A DNA stretch of 64,000 nt from Granulicella aggregans (lineage in GTDB: Bacteria; Acidobacteriota; Terriglobia; Terriglobales; Acidobacteriaceae): the NCBI RefSeq assembly GCF_025685565.1, contig NZ_JAGSYE010000003.1:372001-436000 (forward strand), read 5' to 3'. A program made the position numbers and the translations under genes. Numbering within the stretch: position 1 is the stretch's first letter; the number at the start of each line of letters is the position of its first letter. Under the pieces are notes generated by a model. It ran no database searches, had not been told where the DNA came from, and worked only from the letters and a program-made list of their open reading frames with translations. Positions 41,372-62,239 of the stretch are shown here, in pieces.

Positions 41372-41384
41372 TTGCGTGTCTCCT

Positions 41385-42245: not shown

Positions 42246-42260
42246 AATCGCCCCGTCTGA

Positions 42261-43067: not shown

Positions 43068-43135
43068 GGTTTTCTCCATGCTCGCGGTCCGGGTTGGGAG
43101 TGACTGTTGGGGTGTAGGACGACTACAGAAAAGGG

Positions 43136-43390
43136 TCAGCGCTTCGAGGCGGCGATATCATTCTGGAGATCCATGATCTTGTTGCCCAGAGGATTCATCT
43201 TGTCTCGCTGCGCTTTGCACTCAGCTTGAGTGCGCTGGATCACTTCAACTGGGGCGAGCAGGCAATCCTTTTGGTATTGGGCGTTCAACGTATCGAACTG
43301 CGTGCTGAGTGCGGTGAGTTGATCTTGCTTACTCTTACAGCCTGCAAGAGCAAGCACGGTGAACGCAATAACGATTGCTGTCTTACGCAT
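43136..43390 (-). CDS. Small lipoprotein, TrbK-like entry exclusion candidate
   Basis: The 84-residue protein has a lipoprotein signal with lipobox LALAGC (Cys at about 18), then a coiled-coil-like region with three more Cys (KDCLLAP, QAECKAQRDKM). In IncP and Ti-type trb operons a small lipoprotein, TrbK, lies next to trbJ and prevents entry of a second identical plasmid. Position and size fit; sequence alone cannot prove it. The ATG at 43390 has AAGGAG six bases upstream. Confidence 0.6.
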   Translation of the reverse strand: MRKTAIVIAFTVLALAGCKSKQDQLTALSTQFDTLNAQYQKDCLLAPVEVIQRTQAECKAQRDKMNPLGNKIMDLQNDIAASKR

Positions 43391-43400
43391 GGAGGACTCC

Positions 43401-44723
43401 TTAAAACGACTGCGCGATACGGTGATTCTCATAGGCCGGCAAGAGCATGTCTTGTGTGAAATAAACCTTCACGCGGTGCCCTTCCCGGATTGTGAGCGTT
43501 GGTGGAATCTGAATGAACTTGTCGAGAATCGTCGTAGCCGATTGCGACACGCTCGACGCTGCACCGTTGGTGAAGGACTGTGAACCGGAGCTGTTGAGAT
43601 TCGATCCGCCCTGGCTGAGTTGAGAGGCACCGGAGATGACGCCGAGTGCAATCGACGTTCCGAAGATTTGGAGATAGTGATTGTTGACCTGGTCCTTGAG
43701 TCCCTCTTCTCCGATCTGGTCGAGACCGTGGAATTGATCCAAGTCCACGCTGTATCCGTCCGGCATAAGCAGACGATGAAAGGCAACGGAAATCCGGCGC
43801 TGCTGCCCGAACCCGGCACTGCCGATCTTGCGGGCCTCGCCCAGCACGATCGTTCCTTCTGGTATGAGTATGTGCTGATGGTCGTGGGAATACACGGGAT
43901 TCGACACAAGAACCTTCACCGGCCCCACGGCGTCACCGTCCAAACGGTTCATAAGTACCGTGTCGAGAGTCAGTCCTTCGTAGATCACATAGGGCTGGCC
44001 GGTGGCGGCGTCGATGTTAACCTCGGTCGGACGCTTATAGTCGGTCGCCGGGAACTGGTCCCCCGATGGCCTTGGCTCTCCCGCGACGCGGGGAGCGGTT
44101 AACCCGGCCGGCTGACTAGGTTGCAACGTGGCGGCGTAAGGGTTTTGCGCTGTCGATGGCTGTGGCGACTGGTTCTGCGGTGCCGGAGTCTCCGGCGAAC
44201 TCGCATAGGCGATGTTCGACGAAAACCGGGCCGTATCCGCCCGCTCCTTCTCGGTAGCGGCAAGCTGCTCTCCCGCCTGCTGCGAGGGTGTGAGCTGGGG
44301 TTGGCCGTTCGCCTGGGTGCCGTTGGACGTGTTAGCGCCTGCCGGTGACAGGGGACGGCCATCCGGTCCGAAACCCGACGCTGCCGCCTCCTGCGCCCCT
44401 GTACCGCTTGCCGCTCGATTGCCGGATGCGGCTGCCACCTGAGCGTCCTGCTGTGCCTTTAGCTTATCGGCCCCAAGCTGATGCTGTAGCGCATCCACGT
44501 TCGTTGCCGTGTTGTCCTGGACGTAGGGCTGCGGTCCCGCAGCCTTAGCCTTCTCCGCGTCCGTGGGAGCCTTCTTCCGGGAGCTGATGACAGTCGCCAT
44601 AATCAGCAGCAGTACCGCCCCCATGTAGAGAAACATCTTGAGGTTCTTCTGCAAGACGCCTTTGGGCTGCGGCGTGTGGTCTGTAAGCTTCGGGTCTGCT
44701 GCTGCGGTGATGGTATCGGCCAT
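43401..44723 (-). CDS. trbI: T4SS core protein TrbI/VirB10
   Basis: The protein (about 440 residues) has a cytoplasmic N-terminus, one transmembrane helix (about 31-47, MFLYMGAVLLLIMATVI), a long Ala/Gln/Pro-rich periplasmic linker (about 60-225) and the conserved VirB10 beta-barrel domain: VIYEGLTLDTVLMNRLDGD, LIPEGTIVLGEARKI, RISVAFHRLLMPDGYSVDL and the C-terminal VYFTQDMLLP. It spans both membranes in the channel core. The ATG at 44723 has GAGGAAGGAC upstream. It follows trbG by 4 bases. Confidence 0.92.
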   Translation of the reverse strand: MADTITAAADPKLTDHTPQPKGVLQKNLKMFLYMGAVLLLIMATVISSRKKAPTDAEKAKAAGPQPYVQDNTATNVDALQHQLGADKLKAQQDAQVAAASGNRAASGTGAQEAAASGFGPDGRPLSPAGANTSNGTQANGQPQLTPSQQAGEQLAATEKERADTARFSSNIAYASSPETPAPQNQSPQPSTAQNPYAATLQPSQPAGLTAPRVAGEPRPSGDQFPATDYKRPTEVNIDAATGQPYVIYEGLTLDTVLMNRLDGDAVGPVKVLVSNPVYSHDHQHILIPEGTIVLGEARKIGSAGFGQQRRISVAFHRLLMPDGYSVDLDQFHGLDQIGEEGLKDQVNNHYLQIFGTSIALGVISGASQLSQGGSNLNSSGSQSFTNGAASSVSQSATTILDKFIQIPPTLTIREGHRVKVYFTQDMLLPAYENHRIAQSF

Positions 44724-44727
44724 GACG

Positions 44728-45504
44728 TTAGTCCTTCCTCGTGAAGTCCATCTTCTTCTTGCCCAGCTCGACGTACCCGTTGTCCATGACCTTCGAGATG
44801 ATGTACGTCCCATCGCGCAGGTCGTAGTTGATGAGATTCGGCTTGCCGTCCCGCATCTCGTAAACGCTGAACTTCTCCGGCGCATTCGTCTTGATGTAGG
44901 TGAACTTGTCGTCGTGGTAGATCGACTGGATATCGAAGGGGGCCTCGTTCAGCTTGATCGTGTAGTCGAACTTCAACGCCAGCGGGTAGGCGCTTCTGTA
45001 CTCATCTACGGTCGCTCCGACATGGGACTGAAGAGTCGAAATCTGCTGATGGGCCTGTTCAAGCTGGGCGGCTGGAACGTATTGGGCCGGGCCATTCGTA
45101 GCGACGATGTTGGAAGCATCCGCTGGCTGGATGATGACCTTGAGATCGGGGTCGCCGCCCGATGCGGTGATGTCGGTCAAGGTGAAGCTGTAGATGTTGC
45201 CCTTGTCCGTAATGAGGTTGAGATTCGAGCTAATGCCCGCCTTTGCCGGATGGACGAAGCAGAAGTTGCCCACCACGTCCACAATCCAGAAGTCTTTGTC
45301 GCCGGTCGCGGCCTCCATGATCTTCTCGGTTGCCGGAATGACGATAAGCGTCGTGTACTTGACCTTTGCCCGGATCGGCACGATGTCCTGGGAGTGGTAG
45401 GAGACGTTGCGCGAGGCGGTCTGGGCCGATGCAGTTGGGGCATAGACCGCTAGACTGCAGAGCGTAGTGAGCAAGATTGCGATTGCGGTTGTAAGTTTCT
45501 TCAT
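44728..45504 (-). CDS. trbG: T4SS core protein TrbG/VirB9
   Basis: The 258-residue protein has a signal peptide (about 1-27, ending TASAQ), the N-terminal VirB9 domain (TTLIVIPATEKIMEAATGDKDFWIVD, FCFVHPAKAGISSNLNLITDKGNIYSF) and the C-terminal CTD: LKFDYTIKLNEAPFDIQSIYHDDKFTYIK and YIISKVMDNGYVELGKKK. VirB9 pairs with VirB10 and a lipoprotein in the outer-membrane complex. The ATG has AAGGAGTTACGCC upstream. Confidence 0.9.
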   Translation of the reverse strand: MKKLTTAIAILLTTLCSLAVYAPTASAQTASRNVSYHSQDIVPIRAKVKYTTLIVIPATEKIMEAATGDKDFWIVDVVGNFCFVHPAKAGISSNLNLITDKGNIYSFTLTDITASGGDPDLKVIIQPADASNIVATNGPAQYVPAAQLEQAHQQISTLQSHVGATVDEYRSAYPLALKFDYTIKLNEAPFDIQSIYHDDKFTYIKTNAPEKFSVYEMRDGKPNLINYDLRDGTYIISKVMDNGYVELGKKKMDFTRKD

Positions 45505-45515
45505 GGCGTAACTCC

Positions 45516-47978
45516 TTAGCGGCGCGGTTGAAATGGGTGGGTGTTAGCGAGCTGGCGAACACCCTCGGCGATGCCGTACTGAGCAAAGGCTTCTCGCTTG
45601 AGAAGGTTGTCGCGGGCGTTATTGGTCGCAATCCAGTACGAGACGGAATCGACGTTGAGCCGAACCTTCTTGCTGGACTGAGCTTTGCGAATCAGCATCT
45701 CGCCGGGTGGAATGAGGTCTGCGATGATGTCGATTTCGGTGTCGTTGAGGTGGAACGCCTCGCGGTAGACCTGGCGGTTCATCTCAGGATTGGCAAGGAA
45801 GATTTTGGTCGGGCAGCTCTCAGCGACAATCGCCAGCATCCCCGAATCCTCAAGCTCCTTGATGGATTGCGTAGCAAGGATCATCGCCGCGTTGTGCTTC
45901 CGCCACGTCTTCTGAGCGGTCACGATGTAAGAGCGGATGGTTTCGTTCTTGATGAAGAGCCATGCCTCATCGAGCAGGAACGTCTTGAAGGTCGCCAGTT
46001 TCTCCGGGTTGGCGATCTCGTTGCTGGCCCGGTGGAGGACATAAAAGAGCAAAGGCTCCAACACTTCGGGAGCATCACCCCAGCCGGCAAAGTTGAACGT
46101 CTGGAAGCTGGCGAAGCTGAGCGTGTCTTCTACGTTGTCGAAGAGGAATCCATATTGGCCCTCCTTGGTCCAACGGTGCAACCGCTCCTTCAACTCACCG
46201 ATGATCTGGCTGAACGTCGATAGCGTCCGCTGCTCCGGCGCAACGACATACATCCGCTCGATGGCCTCCCACAACTTGCGCTCTTCCTTGAAATCGAGTT
46301 TGTACCGCTTGTCGTTGCCCTCGATGAGCACGCGAAAGAACGAAAACAGAAATTGCAGGTTCTCCTTACTCTCCGGCAGGCTGAACGGATTGATGGTGAA
46401 ATCCCGACTCTCCTGGCCGACGTTCAGATAGGTTCCACCGAAGATCTCCGTGAGCGACTGAAACGAGCCGCCGATGTCGAAGATGTACGTCTGCGGCCGG
46501 TATTTCTGAGCGTTCGTAAGAAGAAAATTGCATAAGAAACTCTTACCGGAGCCGGTCATTCCGAGAATCAAAGTGTGCGCCACCTCGCCGTTGTGGAGGT
46601 TGAGGTAGTACGGCGTGGCGTTGTCCGTCTCCAGTACCGCGAGGTATTCGGAGCGGAGGTGCGGGTTCGTCTTCTCGCCCGGGTGGATGGTGAAGAGAAA
46701 CGAGAGATCGGCGTAGTTGGAGTTGAGCAGGTACATCTTGCGAAGGTTCTGGGCGTAGTTGCCTGGAACGGTCGCAAACAAGGCATTGAGCTGGTTGTAG
46801 GTCTCTGTGAAGAGCGCACCATCGGCGTTTGTAAACACGCCGATGAACTCGCCCATCTCCCGATTGATAGTCGGGAGGTCGTTGCTATACAGCACGACCG
46901 TAAGAGAGAAGTCACCCAGAGTCTGGCCGTCGCCTAGCGCCCGTAGACACTCGCCAAGGTTTTCGATGTCGGCCTGCTTCGACTCGTCGATCAGCACGTC
47001 GCGCTGGTTCGCCTTAGCCGGGTCGCTCCCCATCTGTGACACGAAACCGGACTTGCTCATGTTGAAGTGGCGACGACGCTTGTCCACTTCCTTGCGGGCC
47101 TTCGCCATCGAAAGCGGTGTCCACTCGGTGACGACGTAAAAGTTGCCCTCGATCTTGAAGAGCCGGTCAAGGACCAGCGGGCGCGTCTCCGCGATAGCCT
47201 CTTTCATCGTGAGGATGCGGACAAAGTGGTCGCCGACGCGGAGGTGGTCACGCTCTGCTTCGATGTTGGAGTTCACCACCTGGAAGTCGAGATACTGGGT
47301 CGATTGCGGCTTGCCCGCGATCCTCCACGTATCGAAGTTGAGCAGCCGGCGAAAGAAGCTGAACTGCGCCTGCTGCCCCTGGACCGCGATGGGCATAAGG
47401 TCGGCAAGATGCCGGGTGAAATTCTGTACGCATTGCTCAAGCCGCACCATGTCGGTGTCGATCTGCTTGCGGAGCAGAACCTTCATGTTGTCGTTGGTGA
47501 ACTGTGCCTTGAGTTCACGGATCGCGCCCTGCGGATCGCGCGGCATTCTTCCCAGCGCGGAGAGGATGCCGGTCTTCGACCGCGCGCCTTCCAGAACGAC
47601 AACATAGAAGATATCGATCTGGTAGAGCCGGTCGCGTTTCGATTCAAAGAACCGTCGCCGCTGCTCGATGGCGGTGTCGATCAGCTCGTCGTCGTAGTTT
47701 GCGAACGGAACCACCGGCCAGTTGGTTTTGAAGAGATACTGATAGACGTGGAACCCTTCGCCGAAGGACTTCAGCGCGGATTCGAGTCGCTTTACCGCGT
47801 ACTTCTGCTCGTCGCTATCGAGACTTTCGTAGTCCACGCCCGTGACATCCAGAACCATTCCGAGGTCGCCGCTCTTCGTGAGGAATGCCGTTTCAGTCCA
47901 GAACCCATATAGGTTGACGTGTGCGCTGAGTGCGTCCGCTTCCTTCCACGGCTGGATGACTTTCGAGAGATTGAGCAT
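45516..47978 (-). CDS. trbE: T4SS assembly ATPase TrbE/VirB4
   Basis: The 820-residue protein has the CagE/TrbE/VirB N-terminal domain (DLGMVLDVTGVDYESLD, FHVYQYLFKTNW) and a C-terminal RecA-like ATPase: Walker A GMTGSGKSFLCNFLL (about 476-484), TYIFDIGGSF, Walker B TFLLDEAWLFIKNE and MILATQSIKELEDSG. VirB4 is the largest and most conserved energy provider of T4SS. It shares one base with the upstream trbD gene (TAATG). The length is usual. Confidence 0.94.
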   Translation of the reverse strand: MLNLSKVIQPWKEADALSAHVNLYGFWTETAFLTKSGDLGMVLDVTGVDYESLDSDEQKYAVKRLESALKSFGEGFHVYQYLFKTNWPVVPFANYDDELIDTAIEQRRRFFESKRDRLYQIDIFYVVVLEGARSKTGILSALGRMPRDPQGAIRELKAQFTNDNMKVLLRKQIDTDMVRLEQCVQNFTRHLADLMPIAVQGQQAQFSFFRRLLNFDTWRIAGKPQSTQYLDFQVVNSNIEAERDHLRVGDHFVRILTMKEAIAETRPLVLDRLFKIEGNFYVVTEWTPLSMAKARKEVDKRRRHFNMSKSGFVSQMGSDPAKANQRDVLIDESKQADIENLGECLRALGDGQTLGDFSLTVVLYSNDLPTINREMGEFIGVFTNADGALFTETYNQLNALFATVPGNYAQNLRKMYLLNSNYADLSFLFTIHPGEKTNPHLRSEYLAVLETDNATPYYLNLHNGEVAHTLILGMTGSGKSFLCNFLLTNAQKYRPQTYIFDIGGSFQSLTEIFGGTYLNVGQESRDFTINPFSLPESKENLQFLFSFFRVLIEGNDKRYKLDFKEERKLWEAIERMYVVAPEQRTLSTFSQIIGELKERLHRWTKEGQYGFLFDNVEDTLSFASFQTFNFAGWGDAPEVLEPLLFYVLHRASNEIANPEKLATFKTFLLDEAWLFIKNETIRSYIVTAQKTWRKHNAAMILATQSIKELEDSGMLAIVAESCPTKIFLANPEMNRQVYREAFHLNDTEIDIIADLIPPGEMLIRKAQSSKKVRLNVDSVSYWIATNNARDNLLKREAFAQYGIAEGVRQLANTHPFQPRR

Positions 47979-48274
47979 TACCGCACCTCTACCTTCGGAA
48001 CTGTCTGTTTGGCGGTGTCATACCGCAGTTTGAACTTCTCGGAGCGTCCGAGAATCTTGAGAAACGCCGGGTCGGAGTTCGTCACCCAGTGGCCGAAGAT
48101 GCAGCCGCCGATGAACACCAGGACGGCCCCGATGATCGTGTTGAACAGGTTGAACATCCCCACCGCCGTCACCGCGATCATGAAGAAAAGGGTGCGTTCG
48201 ATGCCCATATAGGTAAGGGGCTTATGCAGACTCTTGAAGACTCGGTTGCGGCGCTTCTGAGTTGGTTCTGGCAT
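47978..48274 (-). CDS. trbD: T4SS membrane protein TrbD/VirB3
   Basis: The 98-residue protein has a basic N-terminus (KRRNRVFKSLHKPLTYMGIER) typical of VirB3, two hydrophobic segments (about 28-65, LFFMIAVTAVGMF and IIGAVLVFIGGCIFG) and a soluble tail with DPAFLKILGRSEKFKLRYD. VirB3 connects the pilin supply to VirB4. Its stop codon overlaps the trbE start by one base. Confidence 0.85.
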   Translation of the reverse strand: MPEPTQKRRNRVFKSLHKPLTYMGIERTLFFMIAVTAVGMFNLFNTIIGAVLVFIGGCIFGHWVTNSDPAFLKILGRSEKFKLRYDTAKQTVPKVEVR

Positions 48275-48343
48275 AAACCCCTCGCTGTAGAAGGCGGTTG
48301 AAGGTGGAATGGGATAGATCGAAGGGCAATGGCGACAAAAGGG

Positions 48344-48667
48344 CTAGGAACCCCAGAGCCATGTAAGGATGTTGGTCGCCATGATCGCAATCCCGGTTCC
48401 GGCGGCGGCCCCTGCGAGCGTCTTCTTCGCTCCCGGTTCTCCGTGCGCGAATGCGTAGCCGCCGATCACGATTGCAATGAGGCTAGCGGCCTTTGCAATC
48501 GTTCCGGTAAAGAGCGTCTGGATAGAGCTGATGCCGCTGTCGAACGGCGACGCATGGGCGGCGAGTGGGAAGATCAATACGCATAGGAGCAGGGCTGCTC
48601 CGCGTACAAGATAGAGCTTCGTGCGCTCAATCGTTGCTGTTGGGATGATGATTCGTCTGCGTGTCAT
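48344..48667 (-). CDS. trbC: Conjugative pilin TrbC/VirB2
   Basis: The 107-residue prepilin has a long signal region (about 1-40, YLVRGAALLLCVLIFPLAAHAS) and a mature part with two hydrophobic helices (TIAKAASLIAIVIGGYAFAHGEPGAKK and LAGAAAGTGIAIMATNILTWLWG). The GYAFAHGEPGAKKTLAGAAAG loop is typical of TrbC/VirB2 pilins, which build the pilus. It is the first gene of the trb operon, and the operon promoter should lie at 48668-48802. Confidence 0.85.
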   Translation of the reverse strand: MTRRRIIIPTATIERTKLYLVRGAALLLCVLIFPLAAHASPFDSGISSIQTLFTGTIAKAASLIAIVIGGYAFAHGEPGAKKTLAGAAAGTGIAIMATNILTWLWGS

Positions 48668-48802: not shown

Positions 48803-49762
48803 TCAACCGAAGAGCAAACGGTTTTCGTCTTTTTTCGATGGCCGAACTGACCGAACTGGCTTGGCGGGCGGCAGCACCCGGAACTTTTTTTGCAGCTCTT
48901 TTACGAGCCGTGGCAAAGCCTTGTGTGAAGTCGATCTGCCCAGGATCAATGCGCTATCGACAGTCCACGTCACCCCAACGATTGGCCGGGTGACAAGCCC
49001 CCTATGCAAGTGGGCACCCTCTGGAACAAGCGCGTAGCCGTAGCTGGATTCCACCATCCATTGGAGGTCGTTGGGAGATTTGCTGATGCTTGCAACGTCG
49101 CTCGCAATCCCGATCTCAGTCAGCATCTCCATCAACCGGTCGTGGGCTTCTGGGTGCTGCTTCGGTTCACGGAAGATCGTCAGTTTCGATGCAAGATCGT
49201 CTGGCGTGATCGCCTTCAATTTCGACAACGGATCGTCGGCTCTCATGCAGACTACGAGCCGACTCTTGGTGAATGGATACGTCTTCAGGCCCAACCCTGT
49301 CACGGGAAGCGTCAGCAATGCAGCGTCAATGTCGCCTCTGTCGAGCAGCGTAAGAAGCTCGACGTTATCGCCACTTTGAGACTTGATCTCGCACGAAGGA
49401 TAGAGCGCCGTGTGGGTGGAGCAGACCGTCTCGAACAGAGAGTGGTCGACGAACAATGAGAAGCCCAGGCGCATGGGCAGAAAGGCGACGGTCTCTGTAG
49501 ACCGCGCCGCAGCCAGCAAGTCGTCGCAGAGCTGGAGGATGTGTTTGCTTCCGGCAATCAGTATCTCCGCTGCGGCAGTCGTTCGAACTCCATTGTTATG
49601 CCGCACGAGCAAACCGACCTGAGCCGCCTGAGCGAGTTGCTTCATCTGCTCACTGAGGCCAGGTTGCGATATGAAGAGGCGGATGGCGGCGCGGGTGATA
49701 TTGCCTTCTTCGGCCACGACGGAGAGGTTCTTAAGATGACGGAGATCGATCGGGTCTGGCAT
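48803..49762 (-). CDS. LysR-family transcriptional regulator of the conjugative element
   Basis: The product (about 319 residues) has the LysR winged helix (LRHLKNLSVVAEEGNITRAAIRLFISQPGLSEQMKQLAQ, residues about 5-45) and a substrate-binding-like effector domain (MRLGFSLFVDHSLFETV...LPVTGLGLKTYPF). The region after the helix-turn-helix, VGLLVRHNNGVRTTAAAEILI, replaces the usual LF.R..RGV.LT. The ATG at 49762 is chosen because it begins exactly at the domain; the frame extends upstream. It lies directly ahead of the trb operon on the same strand, as LysR-type TraR genes do in Tn4371-like elements, and may control transfer. Divergent to the excisionase-like gene. Confidence 0.85.
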   Translation of the reverse strand: MPDPIDLRHLKNLSVVAEEGNITRAAIRLFISQPGLSEQMKQLAQAAQVGLLVRHNNGVRTTAAAEILIAGSKHILQLCDDLLAAARSTETVAFLPMRLGFSLFVDHSLFETVCSTHTALYPSCEIKSQSGDNVELLTLLDRGDIDAALLTLPVTGLGLKTYPFTKSRLVVCMRADDPLSKLKAITPDDLASKLTIFREPKQHPEAHDRLMEMLTEIGIASDVASISKSPNDLQWMVESSYGYALVPEGAHLHRGLVTRPIVGVTWTVDSALILGRSTSHKALPRLVKELQKKFRVLPPAKPVRSVRPSKKDENRLLFG

Positions 49763-50060
49763 ATGGGGAGTCCCTCTCTGATAGCGCCGTGCGCGATTCG
49801 GAGAGCGGCTTACTGCACAATGCAAGTCAAGCCCGAAGTCAATCCAATTGTGGGCGCATGTACCAGCAAAGTCAATGTGATGCGCCACAGCGAAAGTCAA
49901 GTTTGACCTCAAAAGCCGTCATCGGAAAAGCCTATGCCAACTCGGATTTTGCCATCGGATATATCTATTGGACGGCAGCGGCCCCTGGCCCCATCCTTGA
50001 GACATCCTTCACTGGGTATCGCACCACTCGATACCGCAGGAACCCCCTGGAGTCCCGCCA
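49763..50060. promoter_or_regulatory. Divergent control region with four AAGTCAA boxes
   Basis: Between the LysR gene and the excisionase-like gene the heptamer AAGTCAA occurs at 49824-49830, 49836-49842, 49869-49875 and 49894-49900, all in the same orientation. Spacings are 12, 33 and 25 bases. Divergent autoregulated promoters are the rule for LysR regulators, so these are candidate operator sites, for LysR or for the small HTH protein. Confidence 0.45.
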
Positions 50061-51119: not shown

Positions 51120-53588
51120 GTGCCATTGAGGAACATCTTTCCCACGCCGAATCTACTGAAGCGCGTTGCATTGTCCGTCTTCACGATCGTAGCTCTCAAT
51201 CCCTCGTTCGCAGTCATCAGCAATGCCGATGCTCAAGCTCCTGGCAGGAATGACGGCACGACGTGGCAGGCGCATTGGATCGCCTTTCCCTCCCAAAGCC
51301 AATCGGATAAGGGCCTTGCCAAGGACAATCGAGAACAAACCCAACGGATGCCCCTCTTTCGTGATGAATTCATGGTGCGCAAAGCAATTGCAAAAGCGAG
51401 CCTGAGAATTTCTGGCTTGGGTCAATACGAGGCGCATATCAATGCACACAATGTCACGGACGCCGTGTTGACTCCCGGATGGACGGACTACCGCAAGCGC
51501 GTCTTCTACAACACGTACGATGTGAGCGACCGGCTTGTGCGAGGCAAGAACACGATTGGCGTAATGCTCGGCCGGGGTATGTACGACGTCCCTGAGACCA
51601 AGGGGCGCTACACAAAGTTCAGTGGTTCCTTCGGCACGCCAAAGCTGATTGCACAACTGGACATCCGCTACGTCGATGGAACAACGGAGACGATCAGTAC
51701 CGATGCCGGCTGGAGAACAGCTCCTGGCCCAATTACCTTCAGTTCCGTCTACGGCGGAGAAGACTTCGACGCCCGCCTGGAGCCATCAGGTTGGGACGGT
51801 CCGGCCTTCGACGCGCCGGCGTGGTCGCATGCGGAAGTTGTCGAGGGGCCCGGGGGGATCCTGGAGCCCGAGACAATCCCTCCGATCAAACCATTCGAAC
51901 GCTTCGATCCTGTTTCAGTTACCCATCCAGCACCGGACGTGACCGTCTACGACCTTGGCCAGAATTTTTCAGGATGGCCGGAGATTCAGGTCTCTGGCGA
52001 ACGCGGCACAGAGATTCGGATGATCGCCGGCGAGTTATTGGATGAACACGGCTTTGTCACCCAACACAGCGCCAACGCATCCCCCGGCGATGAAAATTCC
52101 TTTAGCTACACGCTCAAAGGACAGGGCCTTGAGCGCTGGCATCCCCGATTCAGCTATTGGGGGTTTCGTTATGTTCAGGTGGACGGCCCCGAGTCGGTCA
52201 TCCACCACCTTGACGGGCGTTTTCTTCATGATGCAGTGGACGTCACTGGTTCGTTCACAAGCTCCGATGAACTGTTCAACCGGATTCATAAACTGATCAA
52301 CATGGCGATGCTGAGCAACATGGTCAGCGTTCTCACAGACTGCCCGCATCGCGAGAAACTCGGCTGGTTGGAGCAGACGCATCTGGCCGCAGCATCGCTC
52401 ATGTACAACTACGATCTCTCGACGCTCTACACGAAAATTGCCGACGACATGCAGGACGCGCAACTGGCCAACGGCCTCGTGCCATCAATCGCTCCTGAGT
52501 TTCCCGTCTTCGAAGGAGCATTTCGGGACTCGCCGGAGTGGGGCATAGCGGACATCCTGAGCACGTGGTCAGCCTATGAGTTTTACGGCGATCGAAACAC
52601 TCTGAAGAACCACTACGGCTCTATGGTCCGCTATCTTGACTATCTGCAAGGACAAACACAGAACCATCTGCTGACCTATGGTCTGGGTGACTGGTACGAC
52701 ATCGGTCCCGGAGAACCGGGTCCATCCAAACTCACTTCAAAGGGCGTGACCGCAACGTCCGTGTACTACCAGGCACTCACTCGCATGGAACGCATCGCCG
52801 TTCTAACTGGCCATGCGAATGATGTTTCGCGGTACAAGCAGGAAGCAGCTCGGGTGAAGGCGGCGTTCAACGCAGAATACTTTCACCCGGATACCAATCA
52901 GTACGACAAGGGCAGCCAGACAGCCGATGCGATGCCGCTCGTCGTTGGGTTGGTGCCCGAAGATCGCCGGGCCGCAGTTCTGGTGAATTTGATCGGGGAC
53001 ATCCGCAAGCACTCCGACCATGTGACTGCCGGAGATGTCGGATATCACTACGTGGTGCGCGCCCTGACCGATGGAGACCGCTCAGATGTCCTGTACGACA
53101 TGCTGAGCCGTACAGACAAGCCGAGTTACGGCGACCAGCTTGCGCACGGCGCTACGACGTTGACCGAGGCGTGGGACGCGGACCCAAACTCGTCTCAAAA
53201 TCACTTCATGCTCGGCCATGCGGAGGAATGGTTCTACCGCGGATTGGCGGGTATCCAATTCAATCTCGATCGCGACAGAGACGAGCGAATCATCATCCAT
53301 CCGGCAATCGTTGGCAATATCCACAGTGCCAGGGCGACCTTTCGCTCCAGCAGGGGAGACATAGAGAGTGGATGGTCAATCAATGAGGATACGCTGCGTA
53401 TGAACGTGGTCATTCCGCGAGGTTCGACGGCAACGATTACCCTTCCATCCGGATTTGCAAGAGGTGTCCGTATCAATGGAAGTCCATTGCGAACCGGAGG
53501 AGCAATCCTGAAAGTTGAGGCTTCGTCAGGATCTGTTCGTTGTGTCGTCAGTTCAGGCATATTTACGATCGAGGCTTCGAAGCTCTAG
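51120..53588 (+). CDS. GH78 alpha-L-rhamnosidase
   Basis: The 822-residue exported enzyme has a signal region (about 1-39, ending NADAQA). It shows the GH78 order: an N-terminal beta domain (FRDEFMVRKAIAKASLRISGLGQYEAHINAHNV, WTDYRKRVFYNTYDVS), the rhamnosidase-B domain (YDLGQNFSGWPEIQVSGERGTEI) and an (alpha/alpha)6 barrel. The barrel has VSVLTDCPHREKLGWLEQTHLAA (about 402-425), where GH78 enzymes keep acidic residues of the active site, and TTLTEAWDADPNSSQNHFMLG (about 680-700), with the proposed general base Glu. It removes terminal alpha-L-rhamnose from glycans or glycosides. It starts the downstream glycan locus. Confidence 0.9.
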   Translation: MPLRNIFPTPNLLKRVALSVFTIVALNPSFAVISNADAQAPGRNDGTTWQAHWIAFPSQSQSDKGLAKDNREQTQRMPLFRDEFMVRKAIAKASLRISGLGQYEAHINAHNVTDAVLTPGWTDYRKRVFYNTYDVSDRLVRGKNTIGVMLGRGMYDVPETKGRYTKFSGSFGTPKLIAQLDIRYVDGTTETISTDAGWRTAPGPITFSSVYGGEDFDARLEPSGWDGPAFDAPAWSHAEVVEGPGGILEPETIPPIKPFERFDPVSVTHPAPDVTVYDLGQNFSGWPEIQVSGERGTEIRMIAGELLDEHGFVTQHSANASPGDENSFSYTLKGQGLERWHPRFSYWGFRYVQVDGPESVIHHLDGRFLHDAVDVTGSFTSSDELFNRIHKLINMAMLSNMVSVLTDCPHREKLGWLEQTHLAAASLMYNYDLSTLYTKIADDMQDAQLANGLVPSIAPEFPVFEGAFRDSPEWGIADILSTWSAYEFYGDRNTLKNHYGSMVRYLDYLQGQTQNHLLTYGLGDWYDIGPGEPGPSKLTSKGVTATSVYYQALTRMERIAVLTGHANDVSRYKQEAARVKAAFNAEYFHPDTNQYDKGSQTADAMPLVVGLVPEDRRAAVLVNLIGDIRKHSDHVTAGDVGYHYVVRALTDGDRSDVLYDMLSRTDKPSYGDQLAHGATTLTEAWDADPNSSQNHFMLGHAEEWFYRGLAGIQFNLDRDRDERIIIHPAIVGNIHSARATFRSSRGDIESGWSINEDTLRMNVVIPRGSTATITLPSGFARGVRINGSPLRTGGAILKVEASSGSVRCVVSSGIFTIEASKL

Positions 53589-53776: not shown

Positions 53777-55141
53777 ATGGGTGAAATGAAGTCCACATCG
53801 GGTCAGGCTTTCGCGCCGTCAGCCGGTGCATCAGTGCAAGCGATCGATGGGCGTGCCGCCCTCGTGCAGCAGGTGCTCGCATCCAGGACGTTTGCGAAGT
53901 CTGTCCGCCTCACGCGCTTTCTCGAATTCATCTGCCTGAAGACGATCGAAGGCAAGGCAAGAGAGCTCAACGAACAACAGATCGGCATTCACGTCTTTGA
54001 TCGTTCGCCCGACTACAGCGCCTCCGACGACAGCATCGTCCGGACCCAGGCCCGCTTGCTGCGGCAGCGTCTTGAAGAGTACTTCGAGCATGAGTGTCCA
54101 ACCAGCCCTGAGATTATTTCGATTCCGAAGGGCGGCTATGTGCCGGTCTTCGAGCCGAGAAGCGGAAGACTCCAATCCCCTGCGCAACTTCACGGCTCTG
54201 ACGTCGCCGCCCCGACAGGGCAGATCCAGGTAGCATCGCCAGAGCAGCAGACAACTTCACAGAGAATTCCGGAGGGCAACGCGAAGCGGCGCAGTCTTTC
54301 TCTGTCCCTCTCCGTTGCAGTGGCCGCTATCCTCATGGCGGTACTCTTCCTTTATCTATGGCGGATCAATCGCATCGAGACGCCCTCCGATACGCTCTGG
54401 TCAAACGTCTTCAGCAGCGGGCGCCCGGTCGTGATTGTTCCGTCGGACGATGCTCTCGTTCTTTTCGAAGAGCTGACGCAGTCGGCAGTACCTCTCGATC
54501 AGTATCTGAGCGGAAGTTACCTGCAAAAGGCCAAGCTGCCGCAGGCGGGCAACACGCCACTAAGCTCAGAATGGTTTGCAGCGCATCAATATACAAGCAC
54601 CGCCGACCTGAATCTTGCCATGCGGCTTGGCCGAATCCCCGAGGCCGTCAAATCGAACGTTGAGACCCGTAACGCCCGGGTCGTACGCATCGACGATCTG
54701 AAGAGCCGGAACGTCATCCTGATCGGCGGGATTGGAGCGAATCCCTGGGTCAGCCTCTTTTCAAAGCGCCTCAACTTCGACGTGAACTACGACTGGAAGA
54801 ACTCCCAGGGATACGTCTTGAACAAGCATCCTGAACGGGGCGAGTCTGAGATGTACCGTGACGCCACCTCCGACGGCTCCCACCGAAGCTATGGCGTGCT
54901 CGCCTGGTTGCCTGGCATCGAGGACGACGGGCAGGTGCTGCTGTTCCAGGGAACGGGGATGGCAGGCACAGAGTCCGCCGCGGACTTTCCGTTCAACGTG
55001 AATTCGTTCCGAAGCTTCGCGAAACAGATTGGTGCCACCCCGGAAAAGATGCCCTACTTCGAGGCGCTGCTGGAGACGACTAGCGTTGGGGGAAACGCGC
55101 CCGAAGCTCGTCTCGTCGCCTTTCGAGTCATCAAGCCTTGA
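53777..55141 (+). CDS. Membrane-anchored winged-helix-like regulator of glycan locus
   Basis: The 454-residue protein begins with a helical DNA-binding-like domain: LTRFLEFICLKTIEGKARELNEQQIGIHVFDRSPDYSASDDSIVRTQARLLRQRLEEYFE and IPKGGYVPVF (residues about 40-130). The pattern, ending in PKG.Y.P.F, resembles a winged-helix wing and is frequent in acidobacterial regulators beside TonB receptors. One transmembrane helix (about 178-196) and a C-terminal extracytoplasmic domain with RPVVIVPSDDALVLFEELT and NVILIGGIGANPWV follow. I infer that it senses a glycan signal and controls the genes around it. No closer name is known to me. Confidence 0.65.
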   Translation: MGEMKSTSGQAFAPSAGASVQAIDGRAALVQQVLASRTFAKSVRLTRFLEFICLKTIEGKARELNEQQIGIHVFDRSPDYSASDDSIVRTQARLLRQRLEEYFEHECPTSPEIISIPKGGYVPVFEPRSGRLQSPAQLHGSDVAAPTGQIQVASPEQQTTSQRIPEGNAKRRSLSLSLSVAVAAILMAVLFLYLWRINRIETPSDTLWSNVFSSGRPVVIVPSDDALVLFEELTQSAVPLDQYLSGSYLQKAKLPQAGNTPLSSEWFAAHQYTSTADLNLAMRLGRIPEAVKSNVETRNARVVRIDDLKSRNVILIGGIGANPWVSLFSKRLNFDVNYDWKNSQGYVLNKHPERGESEMYRDATSDGSHRSYGVLAWLPGIEDDGQVLLFQGTGMAGTESAADFPFNVNSFRSFAKQIGATPEKMPYFEALLETTSVGGNAPEARLVAFRVIKP

Positions 55142-55389: not shown

Positions 55390-57642
55390 ATGTGGACAAG
55401 ACGTAAATTTCTCGAGGCGTCCTGCGCGAGTGTCGGGGCAGCTCTGACGGCAACCGAACTGGTCGCTGCAACCCACGCCGCGGACGATAGACGACCGCCT
55501 CGAAAACCAGTTCGGCTGGAAGACACAGCTGTCTCTTCGGCCCGGGCTGTGCTCGGCCGTCAACTCGGAGAGCGCGCCGCGGCGTTCGATTTGAAGTGGA
55601 TCTCGGCGGAGGATGGCCGCGAGGTATACGAACTTTCCGCCACGGCGGGGCGCGTCATGGTCTCCGGCAGCAGCGGTGTCGCCATCTGCCGTGGTGCCTA
55701 TGAGTACCTCAGACACTCCTGTAACGCCATGATCACCTGGAGTGGCAGCCACCTCGATCTTCCCGCCGCGCTGCCTTCGGTCGAACACCGGCGCGTCGTC
55801 TCCCCCTACAAGTTCGTCCAGTACCTCAATCCCTGCACCTTCGGTTACACGATGGCCTTCTGGGACTGGCCTCGCTGGGAGCACGAACTCGACTGGATGG
55901 CCCTCCACGGAATCAACCTGCCCCTCGCCATGGAAGGGCAGGAGGCAATCTGGCAGCGCGTCTGGCTCTCACTCGGACTCACGCAGGCCGAGATCGACGA
56001 GTTCTCCACCGGGCCAGCTCATCTTCCGTGGCATCGCATGGGCAACATCAACAACCTCGACGGACCGCTCCCGCAGGGCATCATCGACGCCAAGCGCGTC
56101 CTTCAAGGAAAGATCCTCGACCGCATGCGCGAATTGGGCATGAAGCCCGTCGCTCCCGCCTTCGCCGGCTTCGTCCCTCAAGGCTTCAAGCGGCTTCACC
56201 CGGACACCGAGACCTTTACGCTGCTCTGGCTCCCCGAGGAGTTCAAGACCATCCCCCGCAGCACGCGCACCTTCATCCTCCATCCCGGCGAACAGGACCT
56301 TTACAAGCAGATAGGCAAAAAGTTCATCGACGAATACAAGGCCGAGTACGGCGAAGTGGAGTACTACCTCGCCGACACCTTCAACGAACTCCGTGTCCCG
56401 GTCAGCGAAGAACATCGCTACGAAGACCTCGAACGCTTCGGCCGCACCGTCTTCGAGAGCATCCAGGCCGGCGATCCCAAAGGGACCTGGGTCATGCAGG
56501 GCTGGCTCTTCGTCTACGACTCCGCATTCTGGGACAACTCTTCGGTCGAGGCGTTGCTCCGCGGTGTACCGAACGACCGCATGATCATCATCGACTATGC
56601 CAACGACCTCGCCCCCGCCGTGAAAACCAAGTATGCCCCCGGCCAGTGGAAGACTCAGAAGGCGTTCTTCGGCAAGCAGTGGATCAACGGCATGGCCCAC
56701 ACCTTCGGCGGCAACAACAACATCAAGGGCAACCTCGCCCTCATGGCCTCTGAGCCTGCCGCCGTCCTGACCAGTCCAGACAAAGGGAATCTGGTCGGCT
56801 GGGGCATGTGTCCCGAAGGCATCGAGAACAACGAGGTCGTCTACGAGTTGATGACCGACGCTGGCTGGCGCTCCGAAGCGATCGATCTCAACACCTGGAT
56901 TCCCAGGTACTGCGCGTCACGCTATGGCTCGTGTCCTCCCGCAATGCAAGAAGCCTGGACACTTCTCCGGCAGAGCGCCTACGCAAGCCATACCTGGATG
57001 ACCAATCAGGCATGGCAGACAGAGCCCGGCAATCATCCGGTCTCTGCGCAGATCGACTCCGGGCCGACCTTTCAGAGAGCCGTTGCGCTCTTCCTTTCCT
57101 GCGCGGATCAACTCGCAGGAAATGCGCTCTATCGCAACGACCTCATCGAGCTCGTCGCTCAAGCTGTTGGCGGTCACATCGACCAGCAGCTTGCCATCGC
57201 CGTCCAGGCCGTCGACGCTCGCCAGAACGAAGCCACCGTTGACGCTTCGACTCGCGCTCTCGACTGGATGAACCGGATCGATGCGCTCATGAACCTCCGT
57301 CCCGACCGGCGTCTTGAAACCTGGACCATCGCCGCACGCTCCTGGGCAAAGTCTCCCGACGAGGCGGCCTTCTACGACGAGAACGCGCGTCGCCTCATCA
57401 CCACCTGGGGCTGGCCTGAGCTCTCCGACTACGCCTCCCGCGTCTGGTCGGGTCTCATCCGCGATTACTACGCAGCCCGCTGGGCCGCTTGGTTCGAGAG
57501 CCGCCGAACGAGCAGCCACTTCTCGCTTGATATCTGGCAGCAGACCTGGCTCTCGTCGCCGTATCGCCCCAGCACTCCGCGCCCTGTTCCAGACCTGATC
57601 GCCGAGTGCCACCAGCTGCTCGCCGAATGCAAAGCCACCTAA
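55390..57642 (+). CDS. GH89 alpha-N-acetylglucosaminidase (NAGLU-like), Tat-exported
   Basis: The 750-residue enzyme has a twin-arginine signal (WTRRKFLEASCA, residues 2-13). The GH89 order is clear: an N-terminal domain (about 45-120), a catalytic barrel with YLNPCTFGYTMAFWDWPRWEHELDWMALHGINLPLAMEGQE, YYLADTFNEL (Glu about 332, expected acid/base), WVMQGWLF and CPEGIENNEVVYEL (Glu about 477, expected nucleophile), then a C-terminal helical domain. The equivalents in human NAGLU are Glu316 and Glu446. It removes terminal alpha-GlcNAc from glycans. The next gene encodes an HGSNAT-like acetyltransferase. The Tat signal implies export of the folded protein. Confidence 0.93.
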   Translation: MWTRRKFLEASCASVGAALTATELVAATHAADDRRPPRKPVRLEDTAVSSARAVLGRQLGERAAAFDLKWISAEDGREVYELSATAGRVMVSGSSGVAICRGAYEYLRHSCNAMITWSGSHLDLPAALPSVEHRRVVSPYKFVQYLNPCTFGYTMAFWDWPRWEHELDWMALHGINLPLAMEGQEAIWQRVWLSLGLTQAEIDEFSTGPAHLPWHRMGNINNLDGPLPQGIIDAKRVLQGKILDRMRELGMKPVAPAFAGFVPQGFKRLHPDTETFTLLWLPEEFKTIPRSTRTFILHPGEQDLYKQIGKKFIDEYKAEYGEVEYYLADTFNELRVPVSEEHRYEDLERFGRTVFESIQAGDPKGTWVMQGWLFVYDSAFWDNSSVEALLRGVPNDRMIIIDYANDLAPAVKTKYAPGQWKTQKAFFGKQWINGMAHTFGGNNNIKGNLALMASEPAAVLTSPDKGNLVGWGMCPEGIENNEVVYELMTDAGWRSEAIDLNTWIPRYCASRYGSCPPAMQEAWTLLRQSAYASHTWMTNQAWQTEPGNHPVSAQIDSGPTFQRAVALFLSCADQLAGNALYRNDLIELVAQAVGGHIDQQLAIAVQAVDARQNEATVDASTRALDWMNRIDALMNLRPDRRLETWTIAARSWAKSPDEAAFYDENARRLITTWGWPELSDYASRVWSGLIRDYYAARWAAWFESRRTSSHFSLDIWQQTWLSSPYRPSTPRPVPDLIAECHQLLAECKAT

Positions 57643-57675
57643 ACCGCACGAGAAGACGAAGAGAGGAGACGACCT

Positions 57676-58827
57676 ATGCCGCTTTCATACGCAATCGAAC
57701 CCGAAGCGAAGAAGCCATCCACCCGGCTCATCTCTATCGACGTCCTGCGCGGCATCACTGTCGCCTTCATGATCGCGGTGAACAACAACGGCTACAACGA
57801 TGCCGCCTACCGTTTCATGAATCACTCCCCCTGGAACGGCTTTACCGCGACCGACCTCGTCTTCCCCACTTTTCTCTTCATCATGGGGATCTCGGTCGTC
57901 CTCTCCTTTGGCGGTTCACGCATTCAGGCGACATCGAAGTCCACTCTCCTTGTCCACATCCTGCGCCGCTTCTGCCTGCTGGTCTTCTTCGGCCTCATCG
58001 TCAACGGGTTTCCCTACTTCCACCTCGGGACCCTGCGCATCTATGGAGTCCTGCAGCGCATCGCGGTCTGCTATCTTCTCGCCAGCCTTTTGCAGTTGAT
58101 TACCGATCGCATCACTCCGCGCATCGTCCTGCTTGTCGCCTCGCTCGCAGCCTACTGGGTCATCCTCCGCTGGATTCCCGTCCCCGGCCATGGCATGCCT
58201 GTCCGCGACTTCCCCCTGCTCGACCGCGATATCAATCTCGCCGCCTATGTCGACCGTCACATCTTTCCCAATCGCCTCTTCGAAGGAACGCGCGATCCCG
58301 AGGGTCTGCTTAGCGATATCCCAGCCTTTGCCAGCACTCTCCTGGGCATGATCGCCGGATGGTGGCTCAAGACCGGCCGCGACGCCACCTCAAAGGTCCG
58401 CGCTCTCGTTATCTCCGGAGTTCTGCTGCTCGCTGCTGGCCTGCTCTGGTCGCAGTCCTTCCCGATCAACAAGAAGCTCTGGACCAGCTCCTACGTTCTC
58501 TACGCTGGCGGGTGGAGCGTACTCATCCTCGCCGCGTGTTACTTCGCCATCGAGATCAAACAGTGGCGCGGCGCCTGGACCTTCCCGTGGATCGTCTTTG
58601 GCACCAACGCCATTACTGCATACGTCTTCTCCGAGTTGCTGTCCACCGCCGTCTCTGTCTTCCCCTTCCGGCATGGAGAACCGTTCCAGCCGTTCGTATA
58701 CTCCAGTTTCTTTCAGCACATCGGAAGTCCGGCCTTTGGATCGCTGGTTTACTCAGCGCTCTTCGCCGCCTTCTGCTGGATCCCCGTCTGGCTGCTCTAC
58801 CGCAGACGGGTCTTCCTCCGACTTTAG
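57676..58827 (+). CDS. HGSNAT-like transmembrane acyltransferase
   Basis: The 383-residue protein has about ten transmembrane helices and the N-terminal signature of the heparan-alpha-glucosaminide N-acetyltransferase family: TRLISIDVLRGITVAFMIAVNNNG, then PWNGFTATDLVFPTFLFIMGIS, and later LGTLRIYGVLQRIAVCYLLAS. The human enzyme moves acetyl groups from cytosolic acetyl-CoA to terminal glucosamine on the other side of the membrane. Bacterial members are poorly studied and may act on other amino sugars. It lies 33 bases after the GH89 gene with GAGGAG before the ATG, so the two are co-transcribed. Together they could acetylate and then remove terminal glucosamine. Confidence 0.85.
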   Translation: MPLSYAIEPEAKKPSTRLISIDVLRGITVAFMIAVNNNGYNDAAYRFMNHSPWNGFTATDLVFPTFLFIMGISVVLSFGGSRIQATSKSTLLVHILRRFCLLVFFGLIVNGFPYFHLGTLRIYGVLQRIAVCYLLASLLQLITDRITPRIVLLVASLAAYWVILRWIPVPGHGMPVRDFPLLDRDINLAAYVDRHIFPNRLFEGTRDPEGLLSDIPAFASTLLGMIAGWWLKTGRDATSKVRALVISGVLLLAAGLLWSQSFPINKKLWTSSYVLYAGGWSVLILAACYFAIEIKQWRGAWTFPWIVFGTNAITAYVFSELLSTAVSVFPFRHGEPFQPFVYSSFFQHIGSPAFGSLVYSALFAAFCWIPVWLLYRRRVFLRL

Positions 58828-58918: not shown

Positions 58919-61900
58919 ATGAAGAAGCTCTTGCAACACCTCACTCTACTCGCCGCCGTCCTCGGTCTTGGCAGCATTGCCAGGGCCCAGAGTACCTCTG
59001 CCAACCTCACCGGCAAGATCGTCGATTCGACCGGAGCGGTGGTGCCTCACGCCAAGGTCGAAGCCAAGAACACCGGCACCAATCTCACCAAGTCCGCGGA
59101 GACGGACGGCTCAGGCGTCTACACGATCTCGACTCTGCCTCCGGGACAGTACACGTTGACCGCCGCGGCGCCAGGATTCACCACCCGAGTCCAGACCGGG
59201 ATCGTGCTCACGGTCGCGCAGTCCGCCACATTGGACATTAGCCTGCAAACTGGAGCGACGCAGGACACCGTCACAGTAGAAGGCGGGGCCGAGTTGATCA
59301 ATACCACTACGGCCGAGATCAGCCAGGTCATCGGAGAAGATGCCGTGAGAGATCTCCCGCTCAACGGCCGCGATCCTTCTAGCCTCGTCAATCTATCCGT
59401 CGGCGTCACCAACGAACTCATCTCGCAGGCCTCGACGCTTCCCGGCTCCAACTCGTTCCCGCTTGAATCCGGCGCATCCGCAGGCGGCCAGCGCCAGGGC
59501 AGCACCTGGTATCTCCTTGACGGCGTCGCCAACATGGACACCTTCGCCCTGCTCGCCGCCCCATTTCCCAACGCGGACGCGACCCAGGAGTTCAGGGTCA
59601 TCTCGAACAACTTTGACGCACGCTATGGCTTCGCTCCCAGCGCAGTCGTCAGCATCCAGACCAAGTCCGGCACCAACCAGTTCCACGGCGGCGGCTTCGA
59701 GTTCATTCGCAACAAAGCCGTAAATGCTTCCAACTGGTTCAGCGGCGCAGTCGACGGTCTCCATCGCAACCAGTTCGGCGGCTACATTGGCGGACCCATC
59801 ATCAGAGACAAGCTCTTCTTCTTCTCGAACTACCAGGGAACGCGTTCGAGCTATCAGGCCAACACGAACATAACCTACACTCCCACCGCCGCGATGCTCG
59901 CGGGCGACTTCAGCGCCGTACCCGCCTCCGATCTTCAAGGGCCGCTCACCAGCGCCTTCCACACCGTCAACGGCAAGCCGAACCAGGTCGACACCTCGCT
60001 CTTCAGTCCAGGCGCACTGGCCATCGCCAAGTCTTTGCCTCTCGGCCAGGATCCCGCAACCGGCAAGACCAACTTCGCCTCTCCAGCGCAGAAGCTGACC
60101 TACAACGAGAACACCTCCCGTCTCGACTACACCATCAATCCCAACCAGCGCGTCTTCCTTCGCGCCTTCACCTACCTCTACAACCAGCCCGGGGCGACCG
60201 TGCCCGGGGACATCCTCGCCGGCGTCAATGGCCAGGGCGGAACGTATCTGAACCTCGTAGCTGGCCATACCTGGACCGTCACGCCGACACTGGTCAACAG
60301 CGCAACGCTCTCCTGGGCCGAGATCGACTTCCACACCGGCACGGTCGAGAAGGACACGAGTGGCGCACCGATCTGTCTCTCCCGATTCATCAATGTCAAC
60401 GATCCAGCCGGACAGTGCTACATCGGCGGACTGTCTGCATTTGACGGCAATGTCCTCTACGGCGGCGGTCTCGGCTTCAATGCCTTCACCGGAAATCCCA
60501 ACGACACCCGGCGCCGTTACTGGTGGTTCACTGACACGGTCACCAAGACCATCGGCAAACATACCCTAACCGCCGGGGCCGACATCATGCATCGCTACGG
60601 CTTTGAGTTCTACGGCGGCAGCGTCAATGCAAACGCCGGATTCAACGGCCAGTACACCGGCTTCCCGCTCTCGGACTTCCTCCTCGGTTATCTCAACAGC
60701 CTTGGCCAGGGGGCTGGCGAGCAGGGCAGCGAATCGGGCTACATGATCGGCCTCTACGGCCAGGATCAGTTCAAGGTCCGGCCGAACATCACCGTTACAG
60801 CAGGTCTTCGTTGGGACCCCAACTTCCCTCTCCAGGTCGCGAGCGGTCGTGGCGCAGCCTTCGTTCCCGGACAGCAGAGCACCCGCTACCCCAACGCTCC
60901 CGTTGGCCTGGTCTTTCCCGGAGACAAAGGCATCAACAATGGCCTCATGCCCACTACCTATGGCTACTTCGAACCTCGCATCGGCGTCGCCTGGCAGATC
61001 CATCCCAGCACAGTTGTACGTTCCGGCTTCGGCATGTTCACGACGCCGCTCGAAGACGCCTTCTACAACCATGTCTGGGACACCGCACCGTTCGCCCCCG
61101 CCTACAACTTGAACGGCTCCGGATCAACGCCGCTCTCCTTCGACAATCCCTGGAGCAGCTTCGCTGGAACGGGTGGCACGAGCCCCTTCCCTCCGTTCGC
61201 CTCCCCCTCGCAACTTCCGGCATCGAACTCCACCTTCATTACTCCGCTCGCTGTCCCGGCAGTCTTTTCTTCCAACTTCAAGCTCGGCATCACTCAGAGC
61301 TGGAACCTATCCCTGGAACAGTCCTTCGGCAGCCAGTTCGTGCTGCATATGGCTTACGTTGGAGCTGAATCCTTCCACCAGGCCACAACGGTCGACCAGA
61401 ACCCAGGAGGCTTCGTATGCCCGACTGGCGTTGCCGTCAATCCTGCGAACTGCAATGACGTCCGTGCCAACGGTAACTTTGCGCAGATCATTCAGGTCCA
61501 GCCTGCCGCCACTTCCAGCTACCATGCTCTGCAACTGGGCTTTGAAAAGCGTTTCTCGCACGGACTACAGTTTCAATCGAACTTGACCTGGTCGCACGAT
61601 ACCGACGTAGGCGGCTCCGGCGACCCCTCCTTCGAGTCGAGCGTCAGCGATCCGCATAACGTAGGCCACGACCAGGGACCATCCAGCCTGAACTACCCTC
61701 TCGTATCGGTCTCGAACCTGATCTATCGCTTCCCCACACTTGAACACAAAAACGCACTGCTCAAGAACACACTGGGGGGATGGGAGGTCTCCGGCCTCTA
61801 CACCGCACAGTCCGGTCCACCGTTCACGATCAATGGCGGCGCAGGAAACAACAACTCGGGCTTCCTGGTCGGACAGGATCGCGCGGACCAGGTAGCGGGC

Positions 61901-62239
61901 GTTCCGTTCAAAGTTCGCCAGGGCGGCAAGAGCAACTGGCTCAACAACTACTTCAACCAGGCGGCGTTCACGAACAATGCGTACGGAACTGCAGGAAACT
62001 CGAAGAAGTTTCAGATCCAGGAAGCTCCAATCGGGACTGCGGACATCGCAGTCATAAAGAACTGGACCGCCTACGAACGTTACAAGCTGCAGTTCCGCGC
62101 AGAAGCGTTCAACGCCCTGAATCACCCAAGCTTCGGCCAGCCGGATTCAAACCCCGGCGACTCGAACTTTGGGCAGATCACCGGAATTGGCGCAGTACAA
62201 CCACGCGTCATGCAAGGGGGTTTGAAGTTTTCATTTTGA
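58919..62239 (+). CDS. Oar-like TonB-dependent receptor with carboxypeptidase-regulatory domain
   Basis: The 1106-residue outer-membrane protein has a signal peptide (about 1-21, ending ARAQS), a carboxypeptidase-regulatory beta domain (about 26-108, SANLTGKIVDSTGAVVPHAKVEAKNTGT...GVYTISTLPPGQYTLTAAAPGF), a plug (VIGEDAVRDLPLNGRDPSSLVNLSVGV) and a large barrel ending GGLKFSF with the terminal aromatic residue. Such receptors import large glycans and other substrates in Acidobacteriota; no SusD partner is present. The ATG has AAAGGAGTCC upstream. It follows the acetyltransferase by 91 bases and is likely the uptake gate for the glycan handled by the upstream enzymes. Confidence 0.92.
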   Translation: MKKLLQHLTLLAAVLGLGSIARAQSTSANLTGKIVDSTGAVVPHAKVEAKNTGTNLTKSAETDGSGVYTISTLPPGQYTLTAAAPGFTTRVQTGIVLTVAQSATLDISLQTGATQDTVTVEGGAELINTTTAEISQVIGEDAVRDLPLNGRDPSSLVNLSVGVTNELISQASTLPGSNSFPLESGASAGGQRQGSTWYLLDGVANMDTFALLAAPFPNADATQEFRVISNNFDARYGFAPSAVVSIQTKSGTNQFHGGGFEFIRNKAVNASNWFSGAVDGLHRNQFGGYIGGPIIRDKLFFFSNYQGTRSSYQANTNITYTPTAAMLAGDFSAVPASDLQGPLTSAFHTVNGKPNQVDTSLFSPGALAIAKSLPLGQDPATGKTNFASPAQKLTYNENTSRLDYTINPNQRVFLRAFTYLYNQPGATVPGDILAGVNGQGGTYLNLVAGHTWTVTPTLVNSATLSWAEIDFHTGTVEKDTSGAPICLSRFINVNDPAGQCYIGGLSAFDGNVLYGGGLGFNAFTGNPNDTRRRYWWFTDTVTKTIGKHTLTAGADIMHRYGFEFYGGSVNANAGFNGQYTGFPLSDFLLGYLNSLGQGAGEQGSESGYMIGLYGQDQFKVRPNITVTAGLRWDPNFPLQVASGRGAAFVPGQQSTRYPNAPVGLVFPGDKGINNGLMPTTYGYFEPRIGVAWQIHPSTVVRSGFGMFTTPLEDAFYNHVWDTAPFAPAYNLNGSGSTPLSFDNPWSSFAGTGGTSPFPPFASPSQLPASNSTFITPLAVPAVFSSNFKLGITQSWNLSLEQSFGSQFVLHMAYVGAESFHQATTVDQNPGGFVCPTGVAVNPANCNDVRANGNFAQIIQVQPAATSSYHALQLGFEKRFSHGLQFQSNLTWSHDTDVGGSGDPSFESSVSDPHNVGHDQGPSSLNYPLVSVSNLIYRFPTLEHKNALLKNTLGGWEVSGLYTAQSGPPFTINGGAGNNNSGFLVGQDRADQVAGVPFKVRQGGKSNWLNNYFNQAAFTNNAYGTAGNSKKFQIQEAPIGTADIAVIKNWTAYERYKLQFRAEAFNALNHPSFGQPDSNPGDSNFGQITGIGAVQPRVMQGGLKFSF

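Follow-up and report, generated by a model that had tools for sequence, protein, structure and literature searches.

The window analysed here, a stretch of 64,000 nucleotides of Granulicella aggregans DNA on contig 3 of a 5.7-Mb genome, carries two plus-strand genes separated by 33 bases, one for a GH89 α-N-acetylglucosaminidase and the other for a NagX-type membrane protein with the fold of the human acetyltransferase HGSNAT (Table 1). At this locus, the closest named relatives belong to the genus Granulicella (Acidobacteriaceae). The 454-amino-acid protein encoded upstream of the pair has no Pfam match; its gene and that of the TonB receptor accompany pairs of the window type in five related genomes; one of these has the two rearranged, with the receptor on the other side of GH89. 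The GH78 gene, considered as a further part of the unit, was absent at the related loci searched and, because this neighbour is not conserved with the pair, probably lies outside the core unit. The conjugation-type secretion genes further upstream (VirB11-like T2SSE, TrbL, TrbI, VirB4/TraG-like and TrbC), which are followed by a LysR regulator, raise the possibility that an integrated conjugative element adjoins the GH78-GH89 genes.

Table 1. Features of the window and of the Bacteroidota loci discussed in the text (positions are those of the window unless a locus, L, is named)
Feature	Position	Strand	Basis or remark
Conjugation-type secretion genes	40002-48667	-	
LysR regulator	48803-49912		after the conjugation-type genes
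GH78 α-L-rhamnosidase	51120..53588	+	not conserved with the pair
454-aa protein, probable regulator by position	53777..55141	+	immediately upstream of GH89
GH89 α-N-acetylglucosaminidase (NAGLU homologue), 750 aa	55390..57642	+	Pfam; human NAGLU match; catalytic E333 and E476; N-terminal twin-arginine motif TRRKFLE
HGSNAT-fold transmembrane acetyltransferase (NagX type), 383 aa	57676..58827	+	HGSNAT_cat; NCBIfam NagX; HGSNAT sequence and predicted fold
TonB-dependent outer-membrane receptor type protein	58919..62239	+	CarboxypepD_reg and OMP_b-brl_4; directly downstream of NagX
Bacteroidota locus, B. xylanisolvens	L059:1907-15780		SusC, SusD, 1-3 Exo_endo_phos, two GH89s, glycerate kinase, GntP, sometimes NagX
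Loci similar to L059	L055, L062, L071, L073, L075-L077, L079-L081, L087, L089, L092, L093, L104, L114		
Conserved Bacteroidota locus proteins	L109:4848-5696, L109:6486-7769, L093:4964-5767, L093:6569-7837		no useful Pfam or NCBIfam match

The two proteins of the pair

The GH89 ORF is full-length and has the three-domain layout of NAGLU (N-terminal domain, TIM-barrel and C-terminal domain), with all three Pfam families above their curated cut-offs (NAGLU, 414 bits; NAGLU_C, 163; NAGLU_N, 79). By sequence comparison, its closest solved structure is human NAGLU (4xwh, E 1.6e-122). E333 and E476 align with the catalytic Glu residues of human NAGLU and CpGH89 and are invariant in an alignment of 9 diverse GH89s. 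A sequence-only reading of this DNA had noted both the 33-base spacing and the catalytic Glu pair; the alignment bears out the latter, and the positions, strand and families of the two ORFs were confirmed from the ORF list, Pfam, and sequence and fold comparisons. Export signals, which were read by eye and with simple patterns instead of a signal predictor and are ambiguous for a few N-termini, take the form of a twin-arginine motif (TRRKFLE and variants) on the window-type GH89s, Sec-like N-termini in a second Acidobacteriota group, and lipoprotein-like or Sec-like N-termini in Bacteroides. Such export-type N-termini indicate that GH89 is probably located in the periplasm, where the acetyl group would be presented by a protein of the HGSNAT type.

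The second ORF matches Pfam HGSNAT_cat and, in sequence, human HGSNAT itself (E 2.9e-27). Against NCBIfam NF046061 (NagX) it scores 178.6 bits (E 1.9e-52) and does not reach the equivalog cut-off of 480; on this score the protein belongs to the same superfamily and is not a proven equivalog for free glucosamine acetylation. An AlphaFold2 model (16 rows, mean pLDDT 84.9, pTM 0.86) matched human HGSNAT in Foldseek with a TMq of 0.79 (E 2e-14), residues 16-383 of the model covering HGSNAT 266-663, and VIA-align superposed about 340 residues with a Z of about 39, an rmsd of 2.4 and 29% identity. The next fold match was the GPI acyltransferase GWT1, with a Z of about 20, and all others fell below Z 6. 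Because the model matches HGSNAT along its full length and everything other than HGSNAT and GWT1 scores below Z 6, the window NagX is, as modelled, an HGSNAT-fold protein and no ordinary transporter.

In the printed sequence alignment, H50 of the window NagX corresponds to H297 of human HGSNAT (H269 in the short isoform), N36 to N258, R121 to R344 and E209 to E471; H269, N258, R344 and E471, all in short-isoform numbering, lie at the acetyl-CoA site in the published HGSNAT structure (PMC11357348). H50, which corresponds to the catalytic His, is shared by 84/84 NagX relatives, N36 is found in 63 of the 84 and in 24 of the 26 that are linked to GH89, and R121 and E209 are nearly invariant in alignment A2. 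Judged by alignment, the catalytic His and the acetyl-CoA-site residues of the HGSNAT fold are thus present in the window protein. Two observations count against a dedicated unit: among the 84 relatives, no residue distinguished GH89-linked from other NagX proteins, and the host genome encodes three more good NagX paralogues and one distant relative, all away from GH89. Neighbours of the good paralogues include SelO, TonB receptors and GH92. One paralogue, beside SelO (L038, C2:989810 of the same genome), falls within the clade of NagX proteins linked to the second GH89 group; GH89 of that group is absent from this genome, and the paralogue has perhaps lost its GH89 partner.

Linkage and recurrence of GH89 and NagX

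Linkage within 3 kb was assessed in 100 genomes from the Acidobacteriaceae, the family of the host genome; 58 of them have NagX-type genes and 10 GH89, very short GH20 and GH89 fragments having been removed from the counts by hand. NagX lies within this distance of 7/12 GH89 places and of 5/126 GH20 places (Fisher p = 3.3e-6), or, when only genomes with NagX are counted, of 7/12 and 5/98 (p = 1.6e-5), and all ten GH89 genomes carry NagX somewhere (p = 0.0025); these p-values overstate certainty, as related genomes are not independent, a point to which the trees described in the next paragraph are relevant. Of the five GH89 places with no NagX nearby, two sit no more than 700 bases from where a contig ends. 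GlcNAc is also released by GH20, yet GH20 is seldom linked to NagX, and the linkage is therefore not merely to GlcNAc release. In the phylum sample of 297 genomes, GH89 was found in 14, with NagX beside 12/14 strong GH89 places. The Bacteroidales sample of 99 genomes includes 7 with GH89, and NagX is near 2/14 of their GH89 places, both in one genome, which is the sampling centre itself; in this sample the GH89-NagX link is an exception. No NagX was present at the GH89 loci examined from Flavobacterium, Akkermansia and Ignavibacteria.

Across all Acidobacteriota and Bacteroidota loci, 26 GH89-NagX pairs are less than 500 bases apart, with both genes on the same strand in every case; GH89 leads in 18 of them and NagX in the other 8. 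The pairs occur in the window-type clade, in a second Acidobacteriota clade that is only about 24% identical to the window type and in which nothing but the pair is conserved across 10/10 loci, and with the second GH89 found in Bacteroides and Barnesiella, in addition to three single Bacteroidota cases. The pairing label changes 11 times on the NagX tree, 9 of the changes being forced by supported branches, and at least 7 times on the GH89 tree, which comes from a short search, and the tree distances of the partners correlate weakly (Mantel rho 0.24, 2/2000 permutations). Because both gene orders and separate clades are represented, the sequences argue for repeated association of GH89 and NagX, gains and losses being indistinguishable on the trees. 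The adjacency exceeds chance, and the check for co-occurrence in other genomes that accompanied the sequence-only reading was thus positive, with linkage far above the GH20 control and recurrence in separate clades.

Proposed acetylation before hydrolysis and its alternatives

Taken together, the GH89-NagX pair is real, recurrent and mechanistically coherent, and is built from known families. We consider it reasonably likely that GH89 and NagX together make up a periplasmic acetylate-then-hydrolyse unit, for which we infer the acceptor (glycan-bound α-GlcN), the order in which the steps occur and the nature of the glycan. In the proposed model, a glycan is probably imported by the TonB receptor, and NagX in the inner membrane would take acetyl from cytoplasmic acetyl-CoA and pass it, via N36/H50 at the periplasmic end of the channel, on to the unsubstituted amine of an α-GlcN residue at the non-reducing terminus. 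The exported GH89 would then cut the resulting terminal α-GlcNAc, and the freed GlcNAc would enter the usual NagA route; nagA scores over its cut-off in the host genome. Linkage, fold, active-site residues and cellular side all support the bacterial acetylate-then-hydrolyse route that the sequence-only reading had put forward, its heparan-like part excepted.

The product of GH89 enzymes is GlcNAc, not GlcN, with the acetyl group already on the sugar, and for this reason an enzyme acting on free GlcN would be superfluous next to GH89, whereas one that prepares the substrate of GH89 would not. Family knowledge of GH89 thus leaves nothing for NagX to do under the main alternative, in which NagX acetylates free periplasmic GlcN and GH89 is a mere neighbour in amino-sugar scavenging, some GlcN being released by GH89 or another enzyme and turned by NagX into transportable GlcNAc. 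This alternative draws on fitness data from five other bacteria, in which NagX is needed for free glucosamine use (Price et al., PMC9007349), on the NCBIfam name of the family, which refers to glucosamine N-acetylation, and on the presence of NagX near GH20 and at GH92-bearing loci. Linkage to GH89 is, however, far more frequent than linkage to GH20, and overall we regard acetylation of free GlcN as an unlikely function for the NagX of this pair.

A unit specific for heparan sulfate or heparosan-like glycans, as in the lysosome, would employ the same two enzyme families, and a GH89 of B. thetaiotaomicron, Bt3590, cleaves heparosan oligosaccharides (PMC8225759). Against this stand the absence of any genome-wide match to Hepar_II_III_C, the sole lyase family searched, the failure to identify a sulfatase in the window genes that were scanned near the pair, and the surroundings of related pairs, where the scanned genes included none of GAG type. 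Considered as a heparan degradation locus, the pair likewise had no GAG-type genes beside it among the scanned window genes. What is conserved beside the pair is instead a gene for a probable regulator and one for an outer-membrane receptor of the TonB-dependent type, so that the heparan-like substrate suggested earlier is unsupported and heparan specificity very improbable. In a distant Acidobacteriota (L023:3372-9094), the neighbours of GH89 include a GH106 rhamnosidase and an SGSH_C-domain (N-sulphoglucosamine sulphohydrolase-type) sulfatase; this context is more heparan-like, and there is no NagX within the 20 kb examined. That the membrane protein is no acetyltransferase and merely transports the GlcNAc freed by GH89, in line with an older annotation of NagX as a GlcNAc-related transporter, including in an Acidobacteria paper (PMC6252331), is hardly credible given its whole-length HGSNAT fold, far above any transporter, and its conserved acetyl-CoA-site residues.

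Bacteroidota loci and comparison with known systems

In 21 Bacteroidota loci, Exo_endo_phos proteins, two GH89s, a glycerate kinase and a GntP permease are encoded together, mostly behind SusC/SusD-type genes; NagX is present in 7 of the 21, and an eighth NagX locus, L109, is a shorter version. The two GH89s within one such locus are only 32% identical. The lipoteichoic acid of C. difficile has a 6-P-6 linked repeat of two α-GlcNAc and glyceric acid (PMC6972965; PMC10642750), and about 15% of one of its residues is unacetylated glucosamine (PMC10642750). By gene content, the Bacteroidota locus fits a lipoteichoic acid of α-GlcNAc, phosphate and glyceric acid, with the phosphodiesterase call resting on the broad Exo_endo_phos family and the substrate of GntP being putative. 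On this reading, phosphodiesterases would cut the 6-P-6 links, the two distinct GH89s would remove the two α-GlcNAc residues, NagX would re-acetylate the unacetylated fraction, and GntP and glycerate kinase would take up glycerate. A PDB sequence search gave no match for the phosphodiesterase-like protein or for two family-less proteins of L109. We tentatively suggest, as a possibility somewhat short of even, that GH89 and NagX form a repeatedly assembled module in which NagX acetylates α-GlcN across the inner membrane for GH89, and which in gut Bacteroidota serves a locus for glyceric-acid lipoteichoic acid. The Bacteroidota locus yields a concrete prediction, namely the use of another bacterium's teichoic acid; no paper on a teichoic-acid-type locus with GH89 in Bacteroidota was found in the open-licence literature.

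In the lysosome, HGSNAT and NAGLU catalyse steps of heparan sulfate degradation, in which terminal α-glucosamine is acetylated and then cleaved, and are associated with the storage diseases MPS IIIC and IIIB in humans, respectively. The bacterial pair shares both families and their catalytic residues with the human enzymes, as well as the topology, with acetyl coming from the cytoplasmic side and hydrolysis taking place on the opposite side; the order of steps is presumed to be the same. Bacterial NagX, however, lacks the luminal domain of HGSNAT (383 versus 663 amino acids), the bacterial genes are adjacent, unlike the human pair, and on present evidence the bacterial substrate is not heparan. 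The bacterial proteins thereby provide compact HGSNAT models without the luminal domain, and, if the proposed model is true, trans-membrane acetylation to enable cleavage is a strategy wider than lysosomal heparan breakdown.

Trans-membrane acetyl transfer by NagX, by analogy with HGSNAT, was proposed by Price et al. in 2022 (PMC9007349); NagX as a bacterial HGSNAT-like enzyme acting on free glucosamine is thus already on record as a proposal, and what is new here is that its coupling to GH89 is specific and recurrent. A search of the open-licence literature found no paper on GH89-acetyltransferase coupling, which is weak evidence of absence. The NagX of the Shewanella SO_3504 type (PMC9007349) belongs to the same family, NF046061, and has the same catalytic His, whereas the window NagX is linked to GH89 and not to a chitin/GlcNAc operon, scores 179 bits against the cut-off of 480 and has glycan-bound α-GlcN as its proposed acceptor; the pair makes the question of the bacterial NagX acceptor directly testable. 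With the bacterial enzymes CpGH89 and Bt3590, the window GH89 has the fold family and the catalytic Glu pair in common, but, unlike the window enzyme, these two have been described in the open-licence literature without a partner acetyltransferase.
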